40,902 nucleotides of DNA from NCBI GenBank assembly GCA_947497065.1, contig CANMEQ010000010.1, positions 1 to 40,902 of the forward strand, given 5' to 3'. The position numbers and the translations under genes are program-made. The number at the start of each line of letters is the position of its first letter. Within the stretch, counting starts at the first letter, position 1. The notes under the pieces were generated by a model, which was given only the letters and a program-made list of their open reading frames with translations, did no database searches and had not been told where the DNA came from. Shown here piece after piece: positions 9,455-39,003 of the stretch. The DNA comes from an uncultured Paracoccaceae bacterium (GTDB lineage Bacteria; Pseudomonadota; Alphaproteobacteria; Rhodobacterales; Rhodobacteraceae).

Positions 9455-10633
9455 ATGACCGATAACACACCAGCAGAATTATCAGCCGCAGCCCCCGCCC
9501 GGCCGCGCGGCCGGCACTGGATGATTTTGCTGACGTTTCTCATTTTTGTTGTCGGCCCTACGGCTCTGACCGCTTGGTACATGTGGGAGCGCGCCGCGGA
9601 CAGGTATGTGTCAATCGCCGGCTTTTCCGTCAGAACCGAGGAAAGTAGCTCGGCAATTGAAAGCCTCGTGGGGCTCAGTGGATTGTCGGGCTCATCCTCC
9701 TCTGACACCGATATTTTGTACGATTTCATCCAAAGCCAAGAACTTGTCCGCGAAGTCGACGCCGAACTGGACCTGCGCAGCATTTGGAGCTCCGCTGATC
9801 CAGACCTTGATCCAATCTTTGCCTATCATCCTCCGGGCACGATTGAGGATCTCACAAAGTACTGGCGTAGAATGGTCAAGGTTTACAACGTTGGTTCAAC
9901 CGGATTGCTAGAACTTCGCGTGCAGGCCTTCACGCCACAAGAGGCGCAAAGAATTGCGCAGATGGCTTACGATCAAAGTTCAGAAATGATAAACGAACTC
10001 TCTGCAATTGCCCGCGAAGATTCCACGCGCTATGCGCGTGACGAACTTGACGCTGCAGTAGAGCGTCTCAAAACCGCTCGGGAAGCGATCACACAATTTC
10101 GAAACCGCACTCAAATCGTAAACCCCGAAGCATCTATCCAAAGTCAGATGGGCATCTTGTCCTCGTTGCAGAGTGATCTCGCCAACACCCTGATAGATCT
10201 TGATCTTTTGCTCCAAACGTCACGTGAAAGCGACCCGCGTGTCATTCAGGCGCAACAACGGATCGAAGCGATCGAGACGCGTATTGCTGATGAACGCACT
10301 AAACTTGGGCTGGGGTCGACCAATGGCGTTGCGACCGAAGCACAAGACAATGACACAGATGCTTTTGCCGACTTAATCGGCGAATATGAACGATTGATTG
10401 TTGACCAAACATTTGCGGAACAATCCTATACCGCGGCGCTCGCCGCTTACGACAGCAGTCTGGCCCAAGGTCGCAGACAAAGCAGATATTTGGCTGCCCA
10501 TGTAAGACCTACGCTCGCCGAATCCTCCGTCCATCCGGAGCGGATTAAGATAACATCCCTCGTTGCATTATTTGCATTCCTAAGCTGGGGTATTTTGACG
10601 CTGGCGGCTTACGCCCTACGCGATCGTCGCTAA
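9455..10633 (+). CDS. kpsE: Capsule export inner-membrane/periplasmic adaptor, KpsE/CtrB/BexC family
   Basis: 392 residues, close to the usual KpsE length. A cytoplasmic N-terminus is followed by a membrane helix (about 21-44), a long periplasmic region rich in predicted coiled coil (about 160-350, with heptad-like runs around 185-225 and 240-290), and a C-terminal membrane helix (about 366-388) ending in RDRR. Two terminal helices flanking a periplasmic coiled coil are the family's hallmark. These proteins link the KpsM/KpsT ABC transporter to the outer-membrane export channel. The stop lies 14 bases before the KpsT-like ATPase gene, so the two are co-transcribed. The ribosome site is weak. 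The symbol is given by family and gene context. Confidence 0.88.
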   Translation: MTDNTPAELSAAAPARPRGRHWMILLTFLIFVVGPTALTAWYMWERAADRYVSIAGFSVRTEESSSAIESLVGLSGLSGSSSSDTDILYDFIQSQELVREVDAELDLRSIWSSADPDLDPIFAYHPPGTIEDLTKYWRRMVKVYNVGSTGLLELRVQAFTPQEAQRIAQMAYDQSSEMINELSAIAREDSTRYARDELDAAVERLKTAREAITQFRNRTQIVNPEASIQSQMGILSSLQSDLANTLIDLDLLLQTSRESDPRVIQAQQRIEAIETRIADERTKLGLGSTNGVATEAQDNDTDAFADLIGEYERLIVDQTFAEQSYTAALAAYDSSLAQGRRQSRYLAAHVRPTLAESSVHPERIKITSLVALFAFLSWGILTLAAYALRDRR

Positions 10634-10647
10634 ATCGAGCCATCGAT

Positions 10648-12306
10648 ATGATCGTTTTGCGCAATCTCACCAAAACATTTACCATAAACGGGCGCAGTAA
10701 CACTGTCGCCGACAACCTTAACGCTGTGTTTCCTACCGGGCGTTCTGTGGGCCTTTTGGGCCGAAACGGCGCTGGAAAATCAACGCTGCTAAAATTGATC
10801 GCGGGCACATCGACCCCCAACTGGGGTGAAGTTTTGTCCACCGGGTCAATTTCGTTTCCTGTTGGTTTAGCCTCTTCAATGCACGGTGATCTGACTGGCG
10901 CCCAAAACACTCGTTTCGTTGCGCGCATCTATGGGGCTGATACTCAATCTTTGATGGACTGGGTCGAAGATTTTGCAGAACTCGGCGAACATTTCCACCT
11001 CCCCGTACGGTCATATTCGTCCGGCATGAAAGGGCGCCTTTCGTTTGGTATTAATATGGGGCTCGCCTTTGACACCTATCTCGTCGATGAAGTCACTGCC
11101 GTTGGTGACGCCTCATTTCGCCGCAAATCGAGTGAGGTTTTTCAAGCGCGCATGAAAACATCTGGCGCGATTTTTGTCAGTCATTCCATGGGTCAACTGC
11201 AAGACCTGTGCGAAGCGGGAGCCTTGTTAGAAAATGGCAAGCTGGCATACTACGAGGACATCAATGAGGCGATCGACCGCTATCTTTTCAGCCTCGACCC
11301 GGATCGTACAAAAGCCTCCGCAACCCCCGCACGAGATGACAACATGGTGCGCCTCCCAGACGGAGTGCGTCTTCTTTATGGATTAGGTCTCCCGAACACG
11401 CGCGCAAATTGGATTTTCAATTGTATGCGCCGCCACCCTCAATGCCTAACTGCAGGAGTGCCTGAAACGCACTACTTCGACATCAGGTCGGGACGAAACC
11501 GCAAAATACTGTCTCAACGCCGCAATAAGCTGACCGAATTGGCCGCTAAACAAAAAACATCCAAGTCGAAATCGGACCAAACGAAGATTCTCACACAGAT
11601 CAGCGATGCAACAGCGCTCTTGCAAGTCCATTCGGCCCCGGGCGAAGGCGACATGCGGCATGAGGCATACATTGATTACATGCTCAGACGTCGTCGCAAA
11701 CAACCGGTTCTTTGCGATCTCACACCAGATTACGCGCGCCTGCGCCAATTGGATTTTTCAGATATGGCAGGCCTGGGCAACGGGATGTTCGTGGTCGTTC
11801 TCAGGGATCCGGTAGATCGGTATTGGGAAGAGCTATGTTTGGACATACCAGAAGATAAACGGACGATCGAAACATGCGCCGAACAATTGCATAATATCCT
11901 CAGCCTAGATGGAGCTGAAGTCGTGGGTTTGCGACCAATTTCAGATTACGCACGCATGTTATCGCGCCTGTTACCCGCGGTCCCCAGGGACCAATTGACA
12001 GTTTTATTCCACGAAGACATCGAAGATGAAACCACACGGCTGGCTGTGCTTGAAAAGCTGACAGATGCGTTGGAAATTGATAATCTTTCTGTCGAGAAAC
12101 GACCTGATTTCGAACAGGCACCAGGCATTCCTCAATTACCAAAGGAACTTGGTCGCAAATTGTGTGAGGCCCTCATGCCTCAATATGAGGCTGCATACGC
12201 AGCCTTCGGCGTAGACGTCCCGACACAGTGGCGGTGGCGTCCTGAAAACTTGGACGTTCCTGAAGCCAGCGTGGCCCTCCTACCCGAAATCTCAACCGCG
12301 TCGTGA
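10648..12306 (+). CDS. kpsT: KpsT-type ABC transporter ATPase fused to a degenerate sulfotransferase-like domain
   Basis: 552 residues, about 330 longer than ordinary KpsT. Residues 1-220 are a complete polysaccharide-export ATPase: Walker A GRNGAGKS (38-45), signature SYSSGMKGR (122-130), Walker B YLVDE (144-148) and switch His179. Residues about 240-530 resemble a PAPS-dependent sulfotransferase. LPNTRANW (248-255) sits where the 5' phosphosulfate loop (usually KxGTT/S) should be, followed by RRHP and PETHYFD. VVVLRDPVDRYWEEL (382-396) matches the 3' phosphate motif, although the usual serine is missing. The loop lysine is replaced by Asn250, so catalysis is doubtful; the domain may bind the polymer or act as a regulator. 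The gene ends 25 bases before a strong terminator. The ATPase call is firm and the tail call is moderate. Confidence 0.88.
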   Translation: MIVLRNLTKTFTINGRSNTVADNLNAVFPTGRSVGLLGRNGAGKSTLLKLIAGTSTPNWGEVLSTGSISFPVGLASSMHGDLTGAQNTRFVARIYGADTQSLMDWVEDFAELGEHFHLPVRSYSSGMKGRLSFGINMGLAFDTYLVDEVTAVGDASFRRKSSEVFQARMKTSGAIFVSHSMGQLQDLCEAGALLENGKLAYYEDINEAIDRYLFSLDPDRTKASATPARDDNMVRLPDGVRLLYGLGLPNTRANWIFNCMRRHPQCLTAGVPETHYFDIRSGRNRKILSQRRNKLTELAAKQKTSKSKSDQTKILTQISDATALLQVHSAPGEGDMRHEAYIDYMLRRRRKQPVLCDLTPDYARLRQLDFSDMAGLGNGMFVVVLRDPVDRYWEELCLDIPEDKRTIETCAEQLHNILSLDGAEVVGLRPISDYARMLSRLLPAVPRDQLTVLFHEDIEDETTRLAVLEKLTDALEIDNLSVEKRPDFEQAPGIPQLPKELGRKLCEALMPQYEAAYAAFGVDVPTQWRWRPENLDVPEASVALLPEISTAS

Positions 12307-12370: not shown

Positions 12371-15300
12371 TTAAACCAGTAAGAAGTCGCTTTCTGACAA
12401 AGATGTCGATGGATCAAATGTCGCAATCAAAGACATACCGCCAGAACCTGTTGTGTTTAAATCAACCCACAACTCTCCAGTTGGCTGATTATAGATGAGG
12501 TAATCGTTGCCGTCTTGCGCTTCGGTTCCTTGATGCAAAATCCCACGGGGCAATGCACCGGTCGGGAAAATACCGTCAGGAACATCAATCCAAATGCGGT
12601 CAACACCAGCTTCAAAATCGGTGATCACATCCGTACCGAGCTGCGCGTTACCGGGCACTTCAAAGACGAAGCTATCCGCACCTGCGCCGCCAGTCAGAAT
12701 GTCTGCACCAGCGCCACCAGCGATGATATCATTGCCCGCCCCGCCCTCGATCGTGTCGGCTTGATCGCCACCGACAACAGTATCATCGCCATCGCCACCA
12801 GCGACGTTGCCACCGACGCGGTCACCTAGTGTTATTTTGTTTCCGCTGTCGGACAGGTTGATCAAACGTGCCCCATCCACGATCAAATCAGCAGCGTCAG
12901 AAATTGTGCTGCTGTTCAACCGCATATCACCTGTGTCGCCAATGTTGACTGTGATCTGGCCTGCGTCAGACTGGTTAATTACGCCTTGCCGCACCTCAAG
13001 CGCCAAATTGCCTTGGGTCGAAATTGAGAAATCGAAAATATCAACGCCAGACAAGGCCCCAATATTATCGACAACTTCTGACACGTTCCCAACTTCTACA
13101 ATGAGCGTATCTGTGCCCGTTCCCATGATTGCTTCAAAATCAGATGCATCTACGTGCTGACGGCTAATCGTGAATACGTCGTCACTTTGTGTACCGAGGA
13201 TAAAGCGCTCGTCCGCATTTGCACTGTCAACAATACCTGGCAAGGACGTGTCAGTTACAAACTCAACATTGCTTGGCCGCGCATTGCCAGCACCGGTTGC
13301 GTCACGCAAACGGATTGAAGCATCTAGGCCCATGTCGACGACCAAATCTGCGCCATCAAAACTGAACCTCAGATCACTGATACTGCTGTAAGCTGTCCCT
13401 TCAAGAACCAGCACATCGCCACTGCTTCCAAATTCAAAGTCGCGAATTTGATCGTTTCCATCCCCAATTCGGTAGATAAAACGGTCACTGCTGCCGCCGC
13501 CAGTCATGTCGTCATCATTCAGACCGCCACGCAACGTATCAGCACCGCTGCCGCCAAACAGTTGGTCACTGCCGATCCCAGTGTTCAACGTCCCACCACG
13601 CTCATCGGCGGTTACGATGTCTGGGCGTTCACCGCTTTCAAGATACAAGAACGTGACATCGTTCGCATCAATCGTTGAATCTGGGTGCTCAATTGGCACG
13701 CCAGGGTTCACGGCTTGCCACTGTGGGAACACGTTCAATGGATAATCCTGCGTCGACGATTCTACTCGGACAATATTATCCGCATCGGGGCTACCGTGGA
13801 AGTTGATGTCGCGGTTCGTCTGCGTGACATAGATTTCGTTGTAGTGTTCCGCATGGAAAGACGAGAACAAAACAGAGTGGCGCGCATCGACCGATGTCGC
13901 ATCGTTGACCACTGTCTTAAACGATTCTACGAAATAGTAGTGATACCCGTTCGACGGCCCTTTGTTATGCGCACCTTCTGCATAGAGATCATCACCCGTC
14001 ACCTCATACGTCCGCTGGAAGCGGAACGCGTGAGAGGCCGCATCAATAACACTCACGTTTGAAATTGAAGAATTCTCAACGGCATCCAGTTCAATCGCAG
14101 CGATCGAAACCCAAGCATCATCCAACGTATTGGTAAAGTTGAACGGGTCCTCGGTTTCGCCCCATTGCCCTGACACAGTGAAATCTGACAACACAACGTT
14201 TTTCAGATACGTCGACTGGCGGACAGATGCGATGTCTGCTTCAAATGTAAATGGCAACGCCTCTTGTAGGGTGATCATATTGCCGTCAATCTCGGTAATA
14301 CGCGAGCGGAATTCACGCAGATACGTGTCTTCTGCACGATCGAGCTCCGGTTCAGCCCAATCAGAGTTTCCAGTCTCCGCTAGCCACGTCTCGTCGTTTT
14401 CCTGATGAATAAACAACAGGTCGCCCACACCAAGCTCGTGATCTTCTGACAGCGTGATCTGATATGTTCCCTGCGCAGCATCAACAGCAATGGTGGACAG
14501 GTTTTCAAACAGCTCCTGGCCGTCCGGCTGCACTAAGATTGCTTCACCTGCATTTTCATTTGTCTGCGCCATGCGCAAAATAGTCTGCCCTTCGCCCGCA
14601 CCTTTCAACGTAATGTCTGACCGATCAATCCGCAGTGTTTCAGTGATGTCATATGTGCCAGCGGCCAAATTAATGGTCGAACCACTTGGTGCGCCATTTA
14701 GAAGGTTCTGCAGTTCTTCTAGCGGTGTTGTGCTATCTACGTTGAAAACACGTGCATCCTGTCCGGGTAGCACCGCATCACGCAGGTCCAAATTCGGGCC
14801 AGCTGCCCCTTCAAGTGTCACATCCAAACCATCTGCCGTGAGCCGCACGTCTCTTCCGGAAATAGAGACATTGATATCACGTGCACTCGTGATGGTGTCG
14901 ATCGCTGACAAATCGATACGTTCAAGAAAGCTCAGCGTATCCAAATCCGTAATTACGACTGGTCCGGCGCCCTTTTCGATCACGAACAGGTCATCACCAT
15001 CGCCGCCAGTCATCGTCGTGGCACCAGAGTCAGCTGTTGCAAACAGCTCGTCCTCTCCGTCACCACCGTTCAGGGTGTCGCTTCCTTCACCACCAAACAG
15101 TGTGTCGTTGCCTCCATCGCCATTCACCGTGTCGTCACCCGCGCCGCCGAACAACGTGTCATCCAAAAGACCACCGTTGATTTGATCGTCACGTGCGCCG
15201 CCAATGATTTTATCTGACCGCGATCCGCCAGTTACGAAGCCCGCATAGTCATCCGAAATGGTCACATTCTGGCCGGTGACATTGCGCAGCGTCACCTCAC

Positions 15301-17581
15301 CGGTGCCCTCCAGCGTCACAACACCATCGTCAAAAGCCGCATCAACAATCAAAGAATTGGCGCCGTTTTTGATCAACAAGGTCCCATCGTCAGACTGCGC
15401 AACCATCCGTGGGTCAACACGCACAGCCAAATCTCCGGTGGTCGCCGTCATGTCGATTACGTCGATACCTTGCATGCCTTGCAGCAATTCATACGACAAC
15501 TCGCGGTCTTCACCGGTGATCCGAAAGACGTCTTCACCTGCGCCGCCATCGAACACATCACTGCCCGACAGGTTGGCAAACTGACCTGACACTTCAAAAA
15601 TCTGGCCCTCGTCTCCGGCAACAAAATTATCGTTTTCCGCAGTGAACACAAAATCTGCAGGGGTCGACAGCTGCTCAGCAAACGTCACAAAATCCCCCGC
15701 CGTCGGCAAAACAAAATTATTTTCCGTCAGCAACGCAGCAACCGCTTCTGGAACACGCAATGTCGTGCCCTGCCCCAGATCGAAAACACCAAAACCCGCG
15801 TCAACTGTATACGATAGGTCGAGAGTAAAATCGGCGCCCATTGCGCGAAGGTCGATCCGCTCATAGGTGTCCGTCACGTCAAAGTCAGTAAGGGTCAAGT
15901 CTTCGCCGACAGATACAACAAACGTGTCAGAGCCCGTTCCACCAGCAACCGTATTTGCGCCTGCGCCACCTGTCAGAACATCACTGCCAACGCCCCCATC
16001 AAGCGCGTCATCGCCCGTACCACCATCTAGCCGGTCGTGGCTTGCATCACCGCTTAGGGAGTCATTGCCAGCACCACCGTTGATGATATCACGATCGTCT
16101 CCGCCAGACAGAACATCTGCGCCCTCGTTCCCCAAGATCGTGTCGGCACCATCGTTGCCTGAAATGCTGTCCGCTTTCGCGCCCCCAATAATTTTGTCAG
16201 CTTGCGACCCACCGACAATCGTTCCTGAATACTGATCTGATACCGTGATGTTTTGACCATCGGCATTGCGCAACGTGATTTGGCCGGTGCCTTCTAGCGT
16301 TACGACACCGTCGCCAAACGCCGCATCTACGATCATGTCATTTTCGCCGTTCTTAACCAGCAACGCACCGTCATCAGATTGGCTCACCATCGCATCACTG
16401 ATGCTCATCCCCAGGCTGCCCGTAGCGCCCGACATGTCGATAACGTCGATGCCGCTCATCCCAACAACAAGCGCTTCAGACAATGATCGATCGCTGCCTG
16501 AAATTCGCAAAGTGTCTAAGTCAGCGCCGCCTATGAAAACATCGTCACCCGAGAGCTTAGAAAAGACACCTGAAATACCAAAAATCTGCTTACCAGTACC
16601 GCCAACAAACGTGTCGGTTGCATCCGTGAATTGAAAATCTGCGATCTGGGAAAGCCCTTGCGCGCGTGATGTGAACGCACCGTCATCTGGCAAAATAAAA
16701 CTATCACGGGTTACTTGTGCTGCGGCGGCCGACGTCAAACGCAGCGTTGTCCCACCACCAAGATTAAGCGTGGCATATGTACCGTCATCGATGAAGTTCA
16801 GATTGAAATTTAGGTTCGTGCCCAAGCCGCGCAGATCGATGAATTCATACGCGTTGGTCACTTCAAAGTCTTCAATCGTAAGCGTCTCACCCAGTGCAAC
16901 CACAAACGTATCTGCGCCGAACCCACCGTCAGATGTGTTCGTGCCAGCACCACCCGTTAGAACATCACCCTCAGATCCACCATCCAGCGCATCGTCACCA
17001 GCACCACCGTTCAGAATATCATAGCCGGCATTTCCCGTCAGACTATCGTTACCTGCCCCACCAGATAGGCTATCGTTGTTTGCACCACCGCGCAGCACGT
17101 CGGCACCATTACCACCAGCCAAAACATCTATTCCGCTGCCCCCATCAACACGCCCAGAAACACCATCGGCCACCGTTACCCACTGCAGGTCACCGTCGGA
17201 TAGACTGACCTGCCCTGTTCCTTCTATTACAAATCCTTCACGGCCACCTGCCTCGCGCAAATCAAGCGTCAAGGGATCACCATCAAACTTGATCGTAAAT
17301 GTTCCATCGTCCGACTGGTCCAACAAGAACTCCAGCGCCTTCAATGTCACATCGGGCGCGCTAGACACATCGACCACATCCAACCCGGTAAAGCCGGCCA
17401 GCCGATCCGTCCCAAGACCTAACGAAGATGTGCGCTCTGCCAGCAACGTGTCGATACCTGCACCTAATTCCACGCTATCTCCGGCCTCAACGTTCGCAAC
17501 GTTAGACGGGAACTCGACAATATCACTGTCTGCTGTTCCTACGATCGTATCTAAGCCCGTGGTCAATCGAAAGTTTGTCAT
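12371..17581 (-). CDS. Giant modular RTX protein with beta-helix domain, type I secreted
   Basis: 1736 residues from the chosen start. I prefer the ATG at 17579-17581 (MTNFRLTTGLDTIVG) over an in-frame ATG at 17638, because a GGGG ribosome site precedes it and similar RTX proteins start this way. Three tandem modules of about 310-328 residues each contain a QSDDG motif, a VTLEGTG-like strand, RTX calcium-binding nonapeptides (about 140-230, 457-560, 782-853) and a DTFVV-type closing segment. Residues about 945-1310 look like a right-handed parallel beta-helix (opening STINLAAGTYDITETLRI, as in pectate-lyase-like proteins). Two more RTX blocks follow (about 1328-1373 and 1587-1638). The tail GELWVDLN...DFLLV is a typical type I signal. 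It may bind or modify the capsule. No catalytic residues can be named. Confidence 0.9.
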   Translation of the reverse strand: MTNFRLTTGLDTIVGTADSDIVEFPSNVANVEAGDSVELGAGIDTLLAERTSSLGLGTDRLAGFTGLDVVDVSSAPDVTLKALEFLLDQSDDGTFTIKFDGDPLTLDLREAGGREGFVIEGTGQVSLSDGDLQWVTVADGVSGRVDGGSGIDVLAGGNGADVLRGGANNDSLSGGAGNDSLTGNAGYDILNGGAGDDALDGGSEGDVLTGGAGTNTSDGGFGADTFVVALGETLTIEDFEVTNAYEFIDLRGLGTNLNFNLNFIDDGTYATLNLGGGTTLRLTSAAAAQVTRDSFILPDDGAFTSRAQGLSQIADFQFTDATDTFVGGTGKQIFGISGVFSKLSGDDVFIGGADLDTLRISGSDRSLSEALVVGMSGIDVIDMSGATGSLGMSISDAMVSQSDDGALLVKNGENDMIVDAAFGDGVVTLEGTGQITLRNADGQNITVSDQYSGTIVGGSQADKIIGGAKADSISGNDGADTILGNEGADVLSGGDDRDIINGGAGNDSLSGDASHDRLDGGTGDDALDGGVGSDVLTGGAGANTVAGGTGSDTFVVSVGEDLTLTDFDVTDTYERIDLRAMGADFTLDLSYTVDAGFGVFDLGQGTTLRVPEAVAALLTENNFVLPTAGDFVTFAEQLSTPADFVFTAENDNFVAGDEGQIFEVSGQFANLSGSDVFDGGAGEDVFRITGEDRELSYELLQGMQGIDVIDMTATTGDLAVRVDPRMVAQSDDGTLLIKNGANSLIVDAAFDDGVVTLEGTGEVTLRNVTGQNVTISDDYAGFVTGGSRSDKIIGGARDDQINGGLLDDTLFGGAGDDTVNGDGGNDTLFGGEGSDTLNGGDGEDELFATADSGATTMTGGDGDDLFVIEKGAGPVVITDLDTLSFLERIDLSAIDTITSARDINVSISGRDVRLTADGLDVTLEGAAGPNLDLRDAVLPGQDARVFNVDSTTPLEELQNLLNGAPSGSTINLAAGTYDITETLRIDRSDITLKGAGEGQTILRMAQTNENAGEAILVQPDGQELFENLSTIAVDAAQGTYQITLSEDHELGVGDLLFIHQENDETWLAETGNSDWAEPELDRAEDTYLREFRSRITEIDGNMITLQEALPFTFEADIASVRQSTYLKNVVLSDFTVSGQWGETEDPFNFTNTLDDAWVSIAAIELDAVENSSISNVSVIDAASHAFRFQRTYEVTGDDLYAEGAHNKGPSNGYHYYFVESFKTVVNDATSVDARHSVLFSSFHAEHYNEIYVTQTNRDINFHGSPDADNIVRVESSTQDYPLNVFPQWQAVNPGVPIEHPDSTIDANDVTFLYLESGERPDIVTADERGGTLNTGIGSDQLFGGSGADTLRGGLNDDDMTGGGSSDRFIYRIGDGNDQIRDFEFGSSGDVLVLEGTAYSSISDLRFSFDGADLVVDMGLDASIRLRDATGAGNARPSNVEFVTDTSLPGIVDSANADERFILGTQSDDVFTISRQHVDASDFEAIMGTGTDTLIVEVGNVSEVVDNIGALSGVDIFDFSISTQGNLALEVRQGVINQSDAGQITVNIGDTGDMRLNSSTISDAADLIVDGARLINLSDSGNKITLGDRVGGNVAGGDGDDTVVGGDQADTIEGGAGNDIIAGGAGADILTGGAGADSFVFEVPGNAQLGTDVITDFEAGVDRIWIDVPDGIFPTGALPRGILHQGTEAQDGNDYLIYNQPTGELWVDLNTTGSGGMSLIATFDPSTSLSESDFLLV

Positions 17582-17907
17582 AAACACCCCAAAGTTTTTT
17601 CCGGTAGTCAGCCCCTGACCCCGTCCCTGTATTTCCATTCACATCCGCGCACCAAAACGACACGTTGTTCGACCGTACTGTCGCGAAAAATTTATTAAAG
17701 AACTTTAAAAATTTTACTGAAAAACACTAACGTGTTTACTTAGGGTAACTTTTTTTACAAGAATTTTAATTCTTATCATGTCGAGCATTGCTTTTTAACA
17801 ACCTCAAAACCGTTGCTGGCGAGCAAGAAAAAAATATGCAATCTATCGGGCATATCGACTTGGCTCGAAAAAAACTGATATTAAAAGAAAAAATTTGGAG
17901 ACACCTA
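17582..17907. promoter_or_regulatory. AT-rich divergent promoter region between RTX gene and ugd
   Basis: 326 bases separate the two divergent starts. The section 17690-17790 is strongly AT-rich. A 6-base inverted repeat, AAACAC-4-GTGTTT, at 17722-17737 could be an operator or chance. The ugd frame is open upstream to 17788, but the extension lacks conservation with known Ugd proteins. No promoter boxes can be assigned with confidence. Confidence 0.35.
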
Positions 17908-19074
17908 ATGAAAATCGCTGTTGCAGGCATTGGATACGTAGGTTTGGCGAATGCAGTTCTGCTCGCTCAAAATCACGAAGTTGTAGCGATTGATCTTGAT
18001 GAACAACGTGTGGCCATGGTCAATAATGGTCAAAGCCCTATCGTTGACCCCGATATTGAAGAATACCTTGCGAACAAGGACCTCAACCTACGGGCAACGA
18101 CAGATCACAAAGAGGCCTATATGGATGCACAATTTATAATTGTAGCAACCCCTACGAATTACGACTCCGTAACCAATCACTTCGATACCAGTTCCGTCGA
18201 AGCGGTCATCCGCCAAGCAACAGCTGTGCAACCCGGGGCAACGATCGTTGTTAAATCCACCATTCCGGTCGGGTTTATTAACGGCGTCCGTGCATCACAA
18301 AATCTTTCCAACGTGCTGTTCAGTCCAGAATTTTTGCGCGAAGGCCGTGCGCTCTACGATAATTTACACCCATCACGTATCGTCATCGGCGAGCAATCGG
18401 ATCGCGCTCAAGTGTTTGCAAACCTTCTCATCGAAGGCGCGATAACCAAAGACGTACCGGTTTTGCTTACCGATCCATCAGAAGCCGAGGCGATCAAACT
18501 GTTCGCGAACACTTACCTCGCGATGCGAGTTGCGTATTTTAACGAACTTGACAGCTACGCACTCACACACGGTATGGATTGCCGCCAAATCATCGAAGGC
18601 GTTGGCTTGGATCCACGCATTGGATCCCACTACAATAACCCTTCGTTCGGATATGGCGGTTACTGCTTGCCTAAAGACACCAAGCAGCTTTTGGCAAATT
18701 ACTCAGAAGTCCCTCAGAGCCTCATCGCAGCCATCGTCGATGCGAACAAAACCCGCAAATCCTTTATCGCCGACCGCATTTTAGCGCGTGGACCGAAAAC
18801 AGTCGGCATTTACCGCCTCGTCATGAAGGCCGGATCTGACAACTTTAGACAAAGCTCGATCCAAGGCATCATGAAACGCCTTAAAGCAAAAGGGATAGAG
18901 GTTCTCGTGTATGAACCCGCCCTAGATGCGCCTGATTTCTTCAATTCTCCAGTTTTGTCAGACTTGGAAGACTTTAAATCCCGGTCAGATGTTATCGTCG
19001 CCAACCGCATGACCGATGATATCGCTGATGTAGAGGAAAAGGTATTCACGCGCGATCTGTTTGGCAGCGACTAG
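17908..19074 (+). CDS. ugd: UDP-glucose 6-dehydrogenase
   Basis: 388 residues from the ATG at 17908, which has a GGAG ribosome site; this is the same length as Escherichia coli Ugd, which it resembles along its whole length. It oxidises UDP-glucose to UDP-glucuronate with two NAD+. Visible signatures are the Rossmann loop GIGYVG (7-12), the [20 protein letters not shown] block (about 138-157), the active-site segment [12 protein letters not shown] with nucleophile Cys253, and the C-terminal [11 protein letters not shown]-glucuronate is a common acidic building block of capsules exported by KpsMT systems. The next gene, a KpsM-like permease, starts one base after the stop. An upstream in-frame extension to 17788 is rejected because it has no family counterpart. 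Confidence 0.97.
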
Positions 19075-19075
19075 C

Positions 19076-19927
19076 ATGAGCGGAGTGCCTTCCTCATCAG
19101 TCGATCAAGTACAGCCCCCACCGGAGCCGCCAAAAAAATTGCGCCCCGTACATAAAACACTTCGCCTCAGCGGCCTCCGCACAGTCGCCGCTCTCATACT
19201 GCGAGAAATGACATCCAGCTACGGCCGCTCTCCGGGTGGATATCTTTGGATGGTTGCGGAGCCTGTTTTGGGAATATTGTTCATTACAGGTATCTTTGCA
19301 GCTTTAGGGTTACGGACTCCTCAGCTTGGCACTAATTTTGCGTTCTTTTTTGCAACCGGCATTTTACCATTCACAATGTATACGGATGTAAGCGGTAAAA
19401 CGTCTCAGTCAATTAACTTCTCTAAGGCGCTTTTATCTTACCCTCGAGTTACATACGTCGACGCCCTCGTGGCACGTTCAGCCCTTGCTTTGCTTACTCA
19501 ACTATTAATTGGTTTCCTAATTCTCTACACTATCCGAGCTATATATGACACTCGGACAATTGTTCAGATCGAATTGGTCTTGTTGTCATACAGCATGGCC
19601 GCCGCTCTCGGCTTAGGTATCGGTATTTTCAATTGTTTTTTAGTTTCACAATTTCAGATTTGGGGGCAAGTTTGGTCGATCTTGAATCGGCCTCTATTCT
19701 TTTTATCGGGCATCTTCATTATTCCTGAAAGTCTACCAGACCAATATCAAGACTGGTTTTTGTGGAACCCACTCATTCACACGACAGCACAAATGAGGAG
19801 TGCATTTTACGTCGGCTATGACGCACCTTACGTCAATCCGACTTATGTATTTGGCTTAGCACTTTCATTTGGCCTCTTAGGAACGATCTTCCTGCACAGA
19901 TATCACCGAGACCTACTAGAAAAATAA
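19076..19927 (+). CDS. kpsM: Polysaccharide ABC transporter permease, KpsM family (ABC-2 type)
   Basis: 283 residues from the ATG at 19076; a TTG at 19061, inside ugd, would add five residues. A proline-rich cytoplasmic N-terminus (about 1-30) is followed by LREMTSSYGRSPGGYLW, the amphipathic entry segment typical of the family, then about six membrane helices (around 55-75, 90-110, 125-150, 165-185, 205-225 and 255-275). The segment NRPLFFLSGIFIIPESLP and the following WNPLIHTTAQMRSAFY motif are characteristic of KpsM/Wzm permeases. It forms the membrane channel with the KpsT-like ATPase, from which it is separated here by the RTX gene and ugd. It is co-transcribed with ugd and converges on manC. 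Confidence 0.93.
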   Translation: MSGVPSSSVDQVQPPPEPPKKLRPVHKTLRLSGLRTVAALILREMTSSYGRSPGGYLWMVAEPVLGILFITGIFAALGLRTPQLGTNFAFFFATGILPFTMYTDVSGKTSQSINFSKALLSYPRVTYVDALVARSALALLTQLLIGFLILYTIRAIYDTRTIVQIELVLLSYSMAAALGLGIGIFNCFLVSQFQIWGQVWSILNRPLFFLSGIFIIPESLPDQYQDWFLWNPLIHTTAQMRSAFYVGYDAPYVNPTYVFGLALSFGLLGTIFLHRYHRDLLEK

Positions 19928-32133: not shown

Positions 32134-32910
32134 TTATTCTGCCAAGAATTTTTCGTAGGGCGTTCCTGAGAGCGCGCTACGGCAATCATCATAGTTTATA
32201 ATCGTATCTCTGAGCGCACCTTTGAGGTTCTTTTTCACATCGGATACTAGCCCACTTTGCTTCGGAACCCCAATATGTTGCAAAATTTTGTTCATTTCTG
32301 CTTCAGTATTTTGGACCATGTCTTCATATAAAACCATGTGCTCTTGGAAATCATTCTGGCTCAAGAACATTTCAAAATTTCTGTTATCGACTTCAAATTC
32401 CTCTGTTTTTTGTATCAGCTTCTGAGGGTCGATTTCAAAAGAACCAACAGGTTTTGAATTCCCGGTCACATTGTAACTTCCATTAATTTTCTTAGACTCA
32501 AACCCTCCAAAATAAGAAACTGCTTGCTTAAGAATATTCTCTCTTTTCAGATAAATAATTTTACAATCTGTATCATGCACGAAGGATACGAAATCATCTT
32601 TGTCTAGAATCTGTCGATACTTTAACAAAAAGCCAGATGCGATTTCATCACCGGTTGGCTCAACGTCTTTAAAAAATTTGTTTGTTTTTGGCGTAGTGGC
32701 ACGTTCAAGAAAAGCGCTTTGCAATGACTTGTAACGCTCTTTTTCCGCATCTGTTTGAGCAACAGGAACAACATCATTCTTTCCTGAAAGATTACGACAA
32801 ACCCCACCAAAAACTTCGTTTTGCATGTAAACTTGGGGAGCATTGCGCAATAGGCTAGACAACCACGTTCCGCCACATCGACCAACGAACAAGACTATAA
32901 ATTTTTGCAT
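32134..32910 (-). CDS. Sulfotransferase, Stf0-like
   Basis: 258 residues; the ATG has AAGGA eight bases upstream. The N-terminal FVGRCGGTWLSSLL (8-21) is the phosphosulfate-binding loop in its bacterial GRxGxTxL form. CKIIYLKRENILKQAVSY, further on, matches the 3'-phosphate motif with its arginine and serine (KREN...AVS). It should move sulfate from PAPS to a sugar hydroxyl in the cytoplasm. First gene of a two-gene operon with the PF13704-type glycosyltransferase, which suggests sulfation of that enzyme's product. The local base composition is very AT-rich: 20 of 60 bases are G or C in 32341-32400. The acceptor is unknown. Confidence 0.82.
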   Translation of the reverse strand: MQKFIVLFVGRCGGTWLSSLLRNAPQVYMQNEVFGGVCRNLSGKNDVVPVAQTDAEKERYKSLQSAFLERATTPKTNKFFKDVEPTGDEIASGFLLKYRQILDKDDFVSFVHDTDCKIIYLKRENILKQAVSYFGGFESKKINGSYNVTGNSKPVGSFEIDPQKLIQKTEEFEVDNRNFEMFLSQNDFQEHMVLYEDMVQNTEAEMNKILQHIGVPKQSGLVSDVKKNLKGALRDTIINYDDCRSALSGTPYEKFLAE

Positions 32911-33398: not shown

Positions 33399-34406
33399 GT
33401 GTCAAGAATTATACTTCACATCGGTACACATAAAACCGCCACGACATCTATTCAAAAGTTTCTCGCAAGTAACCGTGACGAACTCAAAAAACGAGGAATT
33501 TTTTACCCTGATTATTCCTTGGTAAAGAGAGCTCCGCACTATGCCCACCTTGGAATGGTAAATGCATTGTCCGGGCGGCATCCGAAATATTCACAACCGA
33601 TGGCTGAACGGTTTTTCAAGCGTGTTGTTGAACGGTCGAAAGACTACGATACAACAATAATAAGCGGTGAACCTTTCTACCGACATATCGATGTCGATCC
33701 ATCGGATAACAAAAAGCATCCCGCAGAAACATATTGGCCTCTTAGAGAAGCTTACATCAAAAAAATTCGCCGTATTTTTGGGGATGTAGAGGTAGTAGTC
33801 GTTTTTAGACGCCAAACAGAATATGCTCAGTCTCTCTATCAAGAACACATAAAGGCAACCACTTACTCTCGAAACTTCCAGCGGTTCCTAGATGACTTTT
33901 GGTTTCATTTTGCATTCAATGACCAAGCTCTTCGCTGGAAAGCTGAATTTCCGAAGTTTAAAGCTTTCTCCTTCGAGGGGCTCGCGAAAAAGAAAGATAT
34001 TGTGCATGAATTTTGTAGCCAATTAGGTCTCGATCTGGATGATTTGGCCCTGCCAGAGAGATCCAACGAAGGGCTACCAGTGGATTTGGTTATTCTAAAA
34101 CGGATGATTCATCGTGGCTCAGTCATAAACAGCGAATTGCGTCCTATGCTACAGGAACTCGTCAACAAATTTCCCGAAACACTTTGGCAAGATTCTAAAA
34201 ACCGTAGTTTTTTCGGTTCAAACGCTGCGCAAATCGATTTCCAAAAGAAATTTGATGACGACAATGAACGTCTAAAAACACTTATCTCAGGTCCGTTCGC
34301 CGAAGAAGAAAAATTGTTCCCTGAAAGTTCAAAAGAAATGATTTACGGTGATCATATGAATGAGCGGTTTTTGATGGCTGTCGTACAAAAACTACTTGAT
34401 GCATAA
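33399..34406 (+). CDS. Sulfotransferase-like protein
   Basis: 335 residues from a GTG at 33399, with GAGG 11 bases upstream; the motif so close to the start rules out a later start. HIGTHKTATTSIQKFL (7-22) is a classical phosphosulfate loop with Lys12. VEVVVVFRRQTEYAQSLYQEHIK carries the 3' phosphate-binding arginine and serine. The rest resembles the sulfotransferase-like proteins common next to bacterial glycosyltransferases. It probably sulfates a sugar of the surface polymer. It stands alone on plus, divergent from the other sulfotransferase gene. Codon use is AT-rich. Confidence 0.82.
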   Translation: MSRIILHIGTHKTATTSIQKFLASNRDELKKRGIFYPDYSLVKRAPHYAHLGMVNALSGRHPKYSQPMAERFFKRVVERSKDYDTTIISGEPFYRHIDVDPSDNKKHPAETYWPLREAYIKKIRRIFGDVEVVVVFRRQTEYAQSLYQEHIKATTYSRNFQRFLDDFWFHFAFNDQALRWKAEFPKFKAFSFEGLAKKKDIVHEFCSQLGLDLDDLALPERSNEGLPVDLVILKRMIHRGSVINSELRPMLQELVNKFPETLWQDSKNRSFFGSNAAQIDFQKKFDDDNERLKTLISGPFAEEEKLFPESSKEMIYGDHMNERFLMAVVQKLLDA

Positions 34407-34736: not shown

Positions 34737-37082
34737 TTAAAATAGTAAGAAATCGTCGAGACCCAAACGTCCACCACCTTCGATGATTGCAATCAGTTCA
34801 GCCTCAGCTGGCCCGCCTCGACCGTCAATGTCGATAAACATCTCACCCGTCCGGCTGTCATAAATTGCCGTTTCTGTGCGCAATGCATTGTTGAACTGAA
34901 CTTGCGTAACTCCGCGTACGTCAATTGATCCATCGCCCAAGTTAAAATACCGGTCATCCAACGCAATTTGATCATTGCCGCCGAAATCAGTGATGCGCGT
35001 CGTGCCTTCTGCATCCGAAACCAAAAACGCGAAATAGTCGGTGCCATCACCCCCGGTGATAACATCGCCACCGCCACCACCGATCAAGATATTGCTGCCG
35101 CCGTTCCCGTTAATCTCGGTGCCAAACCCATTTCCGTTCACGCGAAGATTGGCTGTCCCTTCCAATGAAACGCGTTCAACTTCAGCCGATCCCAAAGTCA
35201 CCTCTGCGGAAGAAACAATCGTATCAAAACCATCTCCAACCAACTCAGTAGCGCGGTCGCCCCTGTTGTCGAAAAGGAAGACATCATCGCCCAGCCCACC
35301 AAAGAATTGATCCGCACCGGCACCACCGTCCAACTGATCGTCGCCCGCGTCACCGAACAAAACATCATCTCCGGCCAAGCCGAAAATCGAGTTGTCAGCC
35401 AAATTCCCTGCAAGCGGTGAATCATCCCCATCAGTGCCCGTAATCACAATATCCGGGAACAGATCACTGGTCGAAAGCACTTCATTGTCGTCTTCATTCA
35501 AATAGAACTCGAACTCTTCAACGTTTTCGAACCGGCCCAAGACCTCGCCCGTTTCAATGAAGATCATCGAGATCGAACCGTCACTTTCATCCTCTTCAAG
35601 TGTGAAGAATTCGGAAAACGCTTCGTACGTCGGTTCATCCAAGACAACGTAATCGAATGTTTCAACACCGTTTGCAAACTCATACGTCTGGAAGAAGGCA
35701 TAGAGGTTGTCGAACTTCACACGGTCCGTCCCTGCCCCGCCATCAATCTCCATATAATCGGTAAGTCGTTGCACATCCAAAAGGTTGTCTTCTTCGCCCC
35801 CAATCACGTAGAGTTCGCCGCCTTGATAGAAATCCAAATCGGCATTCTCAAAATTCTGGAAATCAATATCAATGAACAGGCGGGCCTGACTGGGGTCATA
35901 AAACTCCGACGGGCTCACAAATCGCTGTTCATCATAGGAATACGTCTCGTACAACGCAGCTGGATCAGCCGTTGCTTTGAACGTCCCCTCCACAAAATCC
36001 AGCTCATAAATTCCATAGATGCCAGACGTGAAATCCAACTCGTCTTCGCCGTCACCGCCATCCAATGTAATGTCGCGCGGATCAGCACCAGCAAATAGAT
36101 CTACGGGAAACGAATAATCGACTTCTATTTCCAGCTCATCGTCCCCATCATCAAGGTCAACGAAGGAGTCTTCCGCAGCAAGAATTACAATGTCGTCCAA
36201 CAGTACGTTTCTATCATCATCTTCAGTGCCAAGCAAAGTCGCGGTCTCAATGGCAAAATCATCTTCCGTCTCAAGTGCGCCGGAAATATTCAAAAGCTCG
36301 GTCCCATCCGCGCCCGTCATAACGAATGACGTCAATGCAAATTCCGGGATATCTGACAGGTCCAATTCTGGCCCGCTCGCGACTATGGTATTCACCAACG
36401 AAATAATCTCGCCTACGGTCTCGAAATCAAACGTCCCATTCAACTCTGCAGAAAGTCCTGCAACATTCAGCGTCACCGCCGTTGGAAAAAGAGAAAACGT
36501 ACCAATCGTTTCGTCGCCATCGAACACGGTTAAACCAGAGAACTGTAGTTCGTCTAACTCGGGCAGATCAGAATACGTCTCATCTTCACTCTCACCGGAG
36601 ACAACAAGCGCCAAAGCAGAAATAACATCAAAAATGTCTTGAAATTCAGTCGGGAACTGACCGTCAATTTCAATTCTTTGCGCACCAGAAGAAAATGCAA
36701 ACTTTTCTGTCGATGCTTCAATGCTCAAAATTTCGACACTATCAACAATCACATCAATCGATGAAAATGCCCCCTCGGCAAGCCCCTCGGACAATTGCAC
36801 CGCCAAATCGTCTAGAGATGAAATCTGTTCCAGCTCAAGACCATTCAACACGATGCCATTTTCAGCATCTCCCCACACGATTTGATCGCTGGTGATCCGT
36901 GTTGGCGCTTCATCCAGACTGTCAGTCGCGGCGTTTCCGTCGCCCAAATTTTCAAGTTGTTCTGCGAAATCCAATGCAAAACCATCTAATATACTGAAAT
37001 CAATGAGAGAATCCAGCCGTTCACTCACCTCGTCATCTTCGGTATCCGCGTTCAACAAAGTAGAAAATTTAAAATCAAGCAT
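34737..37082 (-). CDS. Acidic RTX calcium-binding protein, type I secreted
   Basis: 781 residues; the ATG has AAGGA eight bases upstream and no signal peptide. Residues 1 to about 545 are highly acidic and beta-rich and match no family I can name. They include several short repeats of the GxxELxISG type and a DDGDDELEIEVD stretch. RTX nonapeptides occupy about 549-690 (GLAGDDVLFGDAGDDQLDGG and following). The end, TGEMFIDIDGRGGPAEAEL then DDFLLF, aligns with the end of the giant RTX protein and is the probable type I secretion signal. Divergent from the beta-barrel gene, 88 bases away. It is likely an extracellular structural or binding protein. Confidence 0.85.
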   Translation of the reverse strand: MLDFKFSTLLNADTEDDEVSERLDSLIDFSILDGFALDFAEQLENLGDGNAATDSLDEAPTRITSDQIVWGDAENGIVLNGLELEQISSLDDLAVQLSEGLAEGAFSSIDVIVDSVEILSIEASTEKFAFSSGAQRIEIDGQFPTEFQDIFDVISALALVVSGESEDETYSDLPELDELQFSGLTVFDGDETIGTFSLFPTAVTLNVAGLSAELNGTFDFETVGEIISLVNTIVASGPELDLSDIPEFALTSFVMTGADGTELLNISGALETEDDFAIETATLLGTEDDDRNVLLDDIVILAAEDSFVDLDDGDDELEIEVDYSFPVDLFAGADPRDITLDGGDGEDELDFTSGIYGIYELDFVEGTFKATADPAALYETYSYDEQRFVSPSEFYDPSQARLFIDIDFQNFENADLDFYQGGELYVIGGEEDNLLDVQRLTDYMEIDGGAGTDRVKFDNLYAFFQTYEFANGVETFDYVVLDEPTYEAFSEFFTLEEDESDGSISMIFIETGEVLGRFENVEEFEFYLNEDDNEVLSTSDLFPDIVITGTDGDDSPLAGNLADNSIFGLAGDDVLFGDAGDDQLDGGAGADQFFGGLGDDVFLFDNRGDRATELVGDGFDTIVSSAEVTLGSAEVERVSLEGTANLRVNGNGFGTEINGNGGSNILIGGGGGDVITGGDGTDYFAFLVSDAEGTTRITDFGGNDQIALDDRYFNLGDGSIDVRGVTQVQFNNALRTETAIYDSRTGEMFIDIDGRGGPAEAELIAIIEGGGRLGLDDFLLF

Positions 37083-37899: not shown

Positions 37900-39003
37900 T
37901 TAGTTTGTCAGACTCAGCGTGGCTGCGAAAATACCAAAGAAAGAATTGATCGCGGTCACAGGACTTTCACTGACGTAAATCAAATCACCGGATTGAATTT
38001 CAAATTGATCTGCCGAAAACAACCCATCGGCGCTGGTCAGATCAATTGTGAAGATCGTGCGGGGATGATCGGGCCCAGATCTGTCCGCCGTGACATCCGA
38101 AACACTGTAGCGGCGCAAAATCAATATGCCCTGTGCATCAGCCCGATCTTCGGCCAAACCACCAATCATAGACATAGCATCAATCGCCGAAACATGATCG
38201 GACGTAAACGGATGAATGGCTTGCGTCCCAGCCGCCCCTAGCGACGCGAACGTCCGCTGGTCGTCTTCAACGAAAACACGGTCGCCGCCCACCAAGGTCG
38301 TGTTGAAACCTGGATTGTCCAAAACCCGGTCAGCAGACATGCCGTACAACCGGCCGTTCCGCTGAAGTCGGATCTGCGGGTTGACGAGTGCACCCGAAAC
38401 GCCCCCTCCATCCGCGATTAACTGCAACAGCGTGTAATCGCGGTCTGGCAACGGAAACGTGCCAGGTTGAGCGACACCACCTACCAAACTTACCGTTTGC
38501 TGGCTTCCCTCAATCATCGAAAGCTGGATTTGCACCGAAGGGATCGTCTCGACATAACCCTCTTCAATACGCTCACGCGCACGCTCCGGGCTCATCCCAG
38601 CCACGCGCACATCGCCAAGATATGGCAAGAAAATAGACCCCGAAGAAGAGACACGGTTGTCATTTAATACAACATTACGTTGCCCTGGTGCAGTTAAAAG
38701 GCCGCCATTCGCTTCCGTCGTCCATGCGGTGATATTTATAGTATCCCCAGCCTTGATGATGCGGTTGTTAGGCTGATCAACTCGGTTGATCCACCCCAAA
38801 TCAGAGGCGCCAACTTGCGGCCAATGCAAGAACGTGACCAAATTTTCTCGGGTCACCGCTTCGACCGCAAAGTCACGAACTAGCTCATTCTCATCGGTCC
38901 GGCTCGAGGCCAATACCTCCGATTGCAGCCCCGCGCCACGCGGAAACAAATCGCAGCCAGAAAGCCCAGTCACAGCACACAGCAGAAGTATAAATCTACG
39001 CAT
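37900..39003 (-). CDS. Polysaccharide export lipoprotein, Wza/KpsD-like
   Basis: 367 residues; the ATG has GGGGGA six bases upstream. A lipoprotein signal, LSGC with Cys17, starts the mature protein; the residue after the cysteine is Asp. Residues about 75-165 are the Poly_export domain (IIKAGDTINITAWTTEANG, then GSIFLPYLGDVRVAGMSPER). Two SLBB-type domains follow (about 168-250, TVSLVGGVAQPGTFPLPDRD, and about 260-345). It should form the periplasm and outer-membrane part of the export channel, working with the KpsE/M/T set about 20 kb away. It is convergent with the beta-barrel gene and divergent from the last RTX gene. Confidence 0.92.
   Translation of the reverse strand: MRRFILLLCAVTGLSGCDLFPRGAGLQSEVLASSRTDENELVRDFAVEAVTRENLVTFLHWPQVGASDLGWINRVDQPNNRIIKAGDTINITAWTTEANGGLLTAPGQRNVVLNDNRVSSSGSIFLPYLGDVRVAGMSPERARERIEEGYVETIPSVQIQLSMIEGSQQTVSLVGGVAQPGTFPLPDRDYTLLQLIADGGGVSGALVNPQIRLQRNGRLYGMSADRVLDNPGFNTTLVGGDRVFVEDDQRTFASLGAAGTQAIHPFTSDHVSAIDAMSMIGGLAEDRADAQGILILRRYSVSDVTADRSGPDHPRTIFTIDLTSADGLFSADQFEIQSGDLIYVSESPVTAINSFFGIFAATLSLTN

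Follow-up and report, generated by a model that had tools for sequence, protein, structure and literature searches.

A KpsT-type capsule export ATPase fused to a sulfotransferase-fold domain without its PAPS site: a candidate cargo-recognition module in Rhodobacterales

By what means an ABC exporter senses the completion of a capsule chain is an open question, to which the C-terminal domain of Wzt provides the answer for O-antigens. KpsT is described without a cargo-recognition domain in the excerpted text of PMC11041684 and PMC12220298. The DNA analysed here (the window; 40,902 nucleotides of contig CANMEQ010000010.1, assembly GCA_947497065.1, from an uncultured Paracoccaceae bacterium) encodes a kpsT gene that continues in frame into about 300 extra codons, which raises the question of what a second domain does at the end of a capsule export ATPase. 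A first-pass annotation, made from the sequence alone, described this extra part as a sulfotransferase-like domain with a broken PAPS loop, and suggested that it recognises the (sulfated) glycan or couples decoration to export rather than sulfating the polymer. The fusion gene and its parts are as follows.

10648..12306, forward strand: kpsT-pseudo-sulfotransferase fusion gene, 552 aa in a single frame without stop
10648..11307, forward strand: KpsT nucleotide-binding domain, approximately residues 1-220 (ABC_tran and PDB 8tsi match)
10759..10782, forward strand: GRNGAGKS, residues 38-45, which we take to be Walker A (read from the sequence; invariant in all eight fusions except at position 39)
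11014..11028, forward strand: YSSGM, residues 123-127, which we take to be an ABC signature-like motif (read from the sequence; invariant in all eight fusions)
11077..11091, forward strand: YLVDE, residues 144-148, which we take to be Walker B (read from the sequence; Y144, L145, D147 and E148 invariant in all eight fusions)
11308..11361, forward strand: variable linker, approximately residues 221-238, poorly conserved in the fusion alignment
11362..12237, forward strand: sulfotransferase-fold domain, approximately residues 239-530 (AlphaFold2 and Foldseek)

The N-terminal part encodes a complete KpsT ATPase, as had been annotated, with both Walker motifs in place. Pfam ABC_tran is matched over residues 22-151 with 48.2 bits against a cut-off of 25, and the stretch 1-227 aligns with PDB 8tsi (E 1e-61), an entry titled only "ABC transporter ATP-binding protein" that is one of the KpsMT-KpsE structures from Schlegelella thermodepolymerans according to the excerpted text of PMC11041684. 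The fusion contains both the ATPase motifs and the similarity to a solved KpsT that characterise this family, and its 552 aa depart from the stand-alone protein of about 220 residues in the make of the whole protein, not in the ATPase half. Whereas all 31 unfused kpsT rows compared (two of which represent one gene) end 1-16 residues past the modelled ATPase stretch, the window's fusion and the seven further ones described below extend 314-333 aa beyond it. Since the next ABC ATPase in the window's genome shares only 33% identity with the fusion, the latter is probably the working capsule export ATPase.

For the remaining 324 residues, Sulfotransfer_3 scored E 0.018 and 15.7 bits, below the Pfam cut-off of 27, and the domains of four out of four other fusions tested had no Pfam sulfotransferase match at E 1; Pfam-based annotation would thus miss the domain. 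A search of PDB sequences with the single protein retrieved no sulfotransferase (best E 0.014, unrelated chains), and a 15-sequence profile of fusions and unfused relatives retrieved 3rnl (8.5e-15) and 3-OST-3 (5e-9). The AlphaFold2 model, built from an alignment of the window's extra domain with those of the seven other fusions, had a mean pLDDT of 85.9 and a pTM of 0.81. Foldseek matched this model to 208 PDB entries at E ≤10 and 21 at E ≤0.001, the first being 3rnl (E 3e-6), followed by heparan 3-O-sulfotransferase 3, TPST2 and NDST1. According to their descriptions, 49 of the best 50 of these 208 matches are sulfotransferases or contain a sulfotransferase domain; the remaining one, Teg12, is a sulfotransferase as well. 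TM-scores by query length range from 0.30 to 0.54 among these 50, so the likeness is one of fold. The prediction bears out the sulfotransferase-like layout proposed for the extra residues and rules out a domain unrelated to sulfotransferases.

To locate what the domain has kept and lost, the following stretches were compared with unfused relatives.

11389..11412, forward strand: degenerate PAPS loop LPNTRANW, residues 248-255, with no Lys and no GT[TS]
11461..11481, forward strand: PETHYFD, residues 272-278, with Glu273 at the place of the 3-O-sulfotransferase Glu kept and the preceding Lys lost
11716..11733, forward strand: DLTPDY, residues 357-362, a kept DxTPxY with D, T, P and Y invariant in all eight fusions
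11803..11829, forward strand: RDPVDRYWE, residues 386-394, with the Arg kept and the 3'-phosphate Ser replaced by Glu394

The comparison table comprised 74 rows, of which eight are fusions and, once seven short-span rows were dropped, 59 are unfused full-length relatives; the unfused set consists of relatives whose loci were fetched (the best family- and order-sample matches and some others), not of all matches. The annotated replacement of a KxGTT-type loop by LPNTRANW is borne out and recurs in every fusion. At position 250, 57 of the 59 unfused relatives have Lys and two Arg, and 58 each have Gly252 and Thr253; no fusion has Lys or Arg at 250, Gly at 252 or Thr at 253. Similarly, all eight fusions lack Lys272 (directly before Glu273; 59/59 unfused), Arg431 (59/59) and Gly491 (55/59). 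The statement that RDPVDR is kept was only half right: the motif is present at residues 386-391 with its Arg in 8/8 fusions, but the Ser eight residues after this Arg (Ser394, 59/59 unfused) has become Glu in five fusions and Ala in three. Kept in all eight are Asp357, Thr359, Pro360, Tyr362, Arg386, Asp387, Pro388, Arg391, Trp393 and Glu456. Glu273 aligns with the Glu of the 3-OST motif EPHFFD and is present in six fusions, with Met in Jannaschia seohaensis and J. formosa. Judging from 3-OST, we take DxTPxY and this base Glu to lie on the acceptor side. Fusion-specific invariant residues occupy positions 241, 248, 251, 259, 261, 328, 401, 430 and 455 (including Thr251, Cys259, Arg261, His328 and His455).

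Cys259, Cys356, His328 and His455 are invariant in the eight fusions. Cys259 and His455 are rare at these places in the unfused relatives, His328 occurs in 7 of 59 and Cys356 in 11 of 59, among the 14 nearest relatives in 10. These residues could conceivably form a metal site or a ligand pocket.

The usual definition of a sulfotransferase combines a loop Lys/Arg, a Ser and a sheet, as worded in excerpts of PMC11625862, and simulations of NDST1 describe roles of loop Lys614 and a conserved Ser (PMC3733922, in excerpt). In the fusions the fold is present by prediction, and the PAPS-loop Lys/Arg and the 3'-phosphate-helix Ser are absent from all eight. They share the fold, TPxY, the RDP Arg and, in 6/8, the Glu with 3rnl, heparan 3-O-sulfotransferase 3 (1t8t, 6xl8) and NDST1 (1nst), and differ from these by the absence of the PSB Lys/Arg and the PB Ser. 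Judged by its residues, the fused domain should not be expected to handle PAPS in the canonical manner and is a probable pseudoenzyme.

A scan of genome_contigs with the single window protein identified no relative. In a second scan, conducted with an alignment of four fusions and two peptide patterns, 41 stretches matched a pattern and seven encoded a relative, each of them a full KpsT fusion. They derive from Jannaschia pagri, J. seohaensis, J. formosa, Wenxinia marina, Pseudooceanicola atlanticus, Oceaniglobus trochenteri and Paracoccus fontiphilus; with two peptide patterns as its basis, the scan may have overlooked distant fusions. Taxonomy, checked for five of these species, places all five in the Rhodobacterales (Roseobacteraceae and Paracoccaceae), and the other two are also members of the genus Jannaschia. 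By computed kinship, the window's genome falls into the same family as one of the other fusion genomes. The same fusion in seven other assemblies rules out a frame artefact, a local rearrangement or chance as the source of the window's gene, and loss of the PAPS-site residues is a property of every fusion found.

The architecture is rare. By open frame, it was identified in 2 of 295 genomes of the family, 3 of 390 of the order (E 1e-20) and 2 of 20 in one genus (E cut-off within 1e-20 to 1e-30), and among 385 genomes of the class (E 1e-20) in the window only, these samples overlapping one another; a fusion common in the family is ruled out by this rarity. Among the other 18 genomes from the window's genus, 12 encode a KpsT (E ≤1e-40), in no case fused, so the fusion locus may have moved between genera. 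None of 72,556 known plasmid records has a place covering 80% of the fusion (four match the extra domain alone), and viral contigs searched with the two patterns contained no relative; carriage on known plasmids or viruses is ruled out by these scans. Literature searches found no report of a KpsT of this make or of a pseudo-sulfotransferase, and a 2019 Glycobiology survey of glycan-ABC-transporter domains might mention the architecture. What appears to be new is a KpsT of this make, with every part of a known kind.

The fusions form one clade both among 72 extra domains (support 100; stem of 1.14 changes per column; no resolved unfused sister group) and among 39 KpsT domains, two rows of which represent the same gene (support 95). 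All supports come from a quick tree method and are less reliable than those of bootstrap trees. The branching within the clade is compatible between the two trees. Nine unfused kpsT rows group with the fusions in the KpsT tree (support 93). In five of these (L081, L083, L084, L085 and L014) kpsT lies directly before a separate, intact sulfotransferase gene with loop Lys and Ser, and among the unfused relatives of the extra domain these five neighbours score best; those of L085 and L114 (paired with L081) pass Sulfotransfer_3 with 51.1 and 44.1 bits against 27. The sulfotransferase ATG follows the kpsT stop by 24 bases in the same frame in L083 and L085, and the two frames differ in L081, L084, L014 and L011. 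Among the other four rows, L041 and L042 have no sulfotransferase directly behind kpsT, their relative being a hydrolase fusion beyond kpsE, and L049 and L050 have no relative in the stretch examined; in the fuller locus of the L050 genome (L113), kpsM follows kpsT. A hydrolase-sulfotransferase gene lies behind kpsT in L011/L047, and a Sulfitobacter sp. W027 plasmid contains kpsT followed by a gene annotated as sulfotransferase.

Such kpsT-sulfotransferase gene pairs are the likely pre-fusion state, and the simplest account of these sequence relationships is that the gene probably originated by a single fusion of kpsT with a neighbouring sulfotransferase gene. PAPS chemistry was probably lost after the fusion, with the domain retained under purifying selection. 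Between J. seohaensis and J. formosa, dN/dS is ~0.26 for the extra domain (dN 0.182, dS 0.697) and 0.14 for the ATPase half. The Pseudooceanicola-Oceaniglobus pair gives a dN of 0.324 and a dS of 2.726 for the domain and a dN of 0.188 and a dS of 1.576 for the ATPase; saturation of dS (3.621 or no value) affects the three pairs that include the window. Conservation is lowest at third codon positions in five of five pairs. Identity in the three pairs with the window is 35-61% for the extra domain vs 72-90% for the ATPase half. Given the dN/dS values and the variable third positions, the extra domain is constrained at the sequence level, more loosely than the ATPase. The fusion is in these respects more than the first-pass annotation had claimed, as it occurs in eight species, has lost several donor-site elements together and has a likely before-state in the gene pairs. 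It plainly exemplifies an enzyme that has probably become a pseudoenzyme, with one clade and the states before and after at hand.

The window encodes further components of capsule export and two candidate active sulfotransferases.

9455..10633, forward strand: kpsE (BexC/CtrB/KpsE family), directly upstream of the fusion (TIGR01010 E 2.6e-59, below the curated cut-off)
19061..19927, forward strand: kpsM (Pfam ABC2_membrane; gene name inferred)
32134..32910, reverse strand: separate sulfotransferase with Arg-type loop GRCGGTW (Sulfotransfer_1, 34.1 bits vs 22)
33399..34406, forward strand: possible second intact sulfotransferase, 335 aa (by motif reading only: HKTATTS loop, R plus Ser at +8)
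37900..39003, reverse strand: outer-membrane export protein (Pfam Poly_export, SLBB; KpsD-like, gene name inferred)

A kpsE relative lies directly before the fusion in the window and in all seven other loci, and kpsM is present in the window and in five of the seven other stretches, the stretches of J. pagri and W. marina containing none. Apart from the fusion itself, KpsE is the only one of the compared window proteins with a relative in all seven other loci (stretches of at most 16.9 kb each). The sulfotransferase at 32134-32910, the only window gene above a Pfam sulfotransferase cut-off, has no relative in the 14 loci compared. The protein at 33399-34406 has no Pfam match at E 0.001 and no Pfam sulfotransferase match; J. 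pagri, J. seohaensis and W. marina encode relatives of it close to the fusion (E ≤1e-72), and matches in the Pseudooceanicola, Oceaniglobus and Paracoccus genomes are weak or missing. Comparison with the window's proteins revealed no intact sulfotransferase gene near the fusion in four of the loci (Pseudooceanicola, Oceaniglobus, Paracoccus and J. formosa). Whole-genome searches covered seven fusion genomes, including that of the window and leaving out J. formosa. Capsule_synth proteins (KpsC/KpsS family), encoded elsewhere in the window's genome, were present in 7/7 fusion genomes vs 2/14 controls. APS kinase was found in 7/7 fusion genomes and also in 11/14 controls, and for that reason says only that PAPS can be made. 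The sulfated-capsule locus of Cobetia marina likewise comprises a kps exporter and sulfotransferase genes in one cluster, but as separate genes and with no mention of a fusion in the excerpted text of PMC11766843.

An RTX protein of 1755 aa with ten calcium-repeat stretches is encoded at 12371-17638 (reverse strand), convergent with the fusion gene, and has relatives in five of the seven other fusion loci. A second RTX protein is encoded in the window at 34737-37082.

From the sequence comparisons, a polysaccharide sulfotransferase gene would have been located directly behind kpsT and its product would have acted on the same capsule; loss of the intervening stop would then have joined the sulfotransferase to the exporter, and the PAPS site would have decayed, with the fold, DxTPxY and, in six of the eight, the base Glu being kept. 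Going beyond these comparisons, we infer that the domain, present at each KpsT of a KpsMT pair, could bind the capsule chain or its modified end, such that mature polymer would be captured and its export timed, as the Wzt jelly-roll checks the O-antigen cap. As in the fusion, the extra domain of Wzt is C-terminal to the ATPase of a related glycan exporter; it is a jelly-roll (PMC9445017, in excerpt) vs the sulfotransferase fold of the KpsT fusion, and binds the end of the glycan chain and is required for export according to excerpts of PMC9445017 and PMC11231755.

We tentatively favour a Wzt-like cargo-recognition or maturation check as the function of the fused domain, because it is situated at the glycan-binding place of Wzt and KpsMT is described with limited specificity for CPS and as recognising the lipid end (excerpted text of PMC11041684 and PMC12220298). 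The same description means that KpsMT does not require a cargo reader. The context (a capsule locus, relatives beside kpsT and the Wzt-like position) agrees with the suggested recognition of the polymer or coupling of decoration to export, although only some of the loci were found to have an intact sulfotransferase gene near the fusion. The net charge of the aligned domain ranges from -1 to -9 in the eight fusions, and the 59 unfused relatives average +3.3 and span -7 to +14. Such a charge argues against plain binding of a sulfated polymer, for which basic charge would more naturally be kept or raised; the argument does not bear on a domain that reads a chain without sulfate or with some other modification.

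The main rival of the cargo check is a protein-docking scaffold, considered less likely, in which the inactive domain would make no glycan contact and would hold active sulfotransferases, glycosyltransferases or its own copy at the exporter, thereby co-locating synthesis, decoration and export. The domain's relatives encoded beside kpsT in capsule loci, its less basic charge and fusion-specific invariant residues, and the separate sulfotransferase gene within the window would all suit such a role. It is harder to reconcile with a set of window proteins of which only KpsE and the fusion recur across the other loci, and with an invariant DxTPxY, though this motif may be structural.

A dead sulfotransferase tolerated because its loss would harm the folding or expression of KpsT is improbable. 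Such a remnant would explain why the domain evolves faster than the ATPase half and why the stem after the fusion is long, but all eight fusions have retained their full 314-333 aa, dN/dS is ~0.26 in the sole pair with dS well below saturation, and new invariant residues (T251, C259, R261, H328, H455) have appeared. Still less probable is a domain that remains an enzyme, with another donor or another transferred group; the Glu in six fusions and the RDP Arg and DxTPxY in all eight would fit such an enzyme, but every fusion lacks the loop Lys, Gly and Thr, the Lys preceding the Glu, the 3'-phosphate Ser, Arg431 and Gly491, and the Glu itself has become Met in J. seohaensis and J. formosa. A nucleotide sensor reporting sulfation supply to the exporter through weak PAP/PAPS binding, in keeping with the fold of PAPS-binding enzymes and with APS kinase in all seven genomes (though in most controls too), is very improbable given that phosphate-contact residues are replaced, one of them by Glu in five of eight fusions.

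Under the favoured cargo check, a KpsMT-type exporter would have gained its own checkpoint in one lineage, the enzyme that wrote a mark having been captured and turned into the reader of that mark, in parallel to and independently of the cap-binding domain of Wzt; this wider reading is possible but doubtful. A KpsT with a built-in sulfotransferase fold devoid of a donor site makes the question of chain completion testable by deletion.

Several long frames initially considered as KpsT fusions proved to be of other make. L011, L012, L013, L069, L082 and L087 are hydrolase-sulfotransferase fusions (L011/L047 by Pfam, the others by eye), and L039, L043-L046 and L048 have no KpsT match in a profile search. 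Proteins of ~800-900 aa with hydrolase and sulfotransferase parts are encoded in L012, L013, L069 and L082 (also L041, L042, L113 and L115); their layout, read by eye, consists of an alpha/beta-hydrolase, a PAPS-loop sulfotransferase and a second sulfotransferase-like stretch, and they are located in capsule loci where inspected. The Sulfitobacter guttiformis plasmid pSD118 encodes a large protein of the same type (L109:9221-11737), annotated as alpha/beta hydrolase, and a shorter one (L047:3974-5656) contains Abhydrolase_3 and Sulfotransfer_3 by Pfam. These proteins perhaps combine decoration and its removal in one chain. Furthermore, stand-alone relatives of the extra domain (L044:4368-5645, L045:1904-3190 and L046:2622-4010) are encoded beside a gene read by eye as NuoD, a reading based on FNINFGPQHPAAHG in L044 and L045; in some genomes a sulfotransferase gene thus seemingly lies inside the gene cluster of respiratory complex I.
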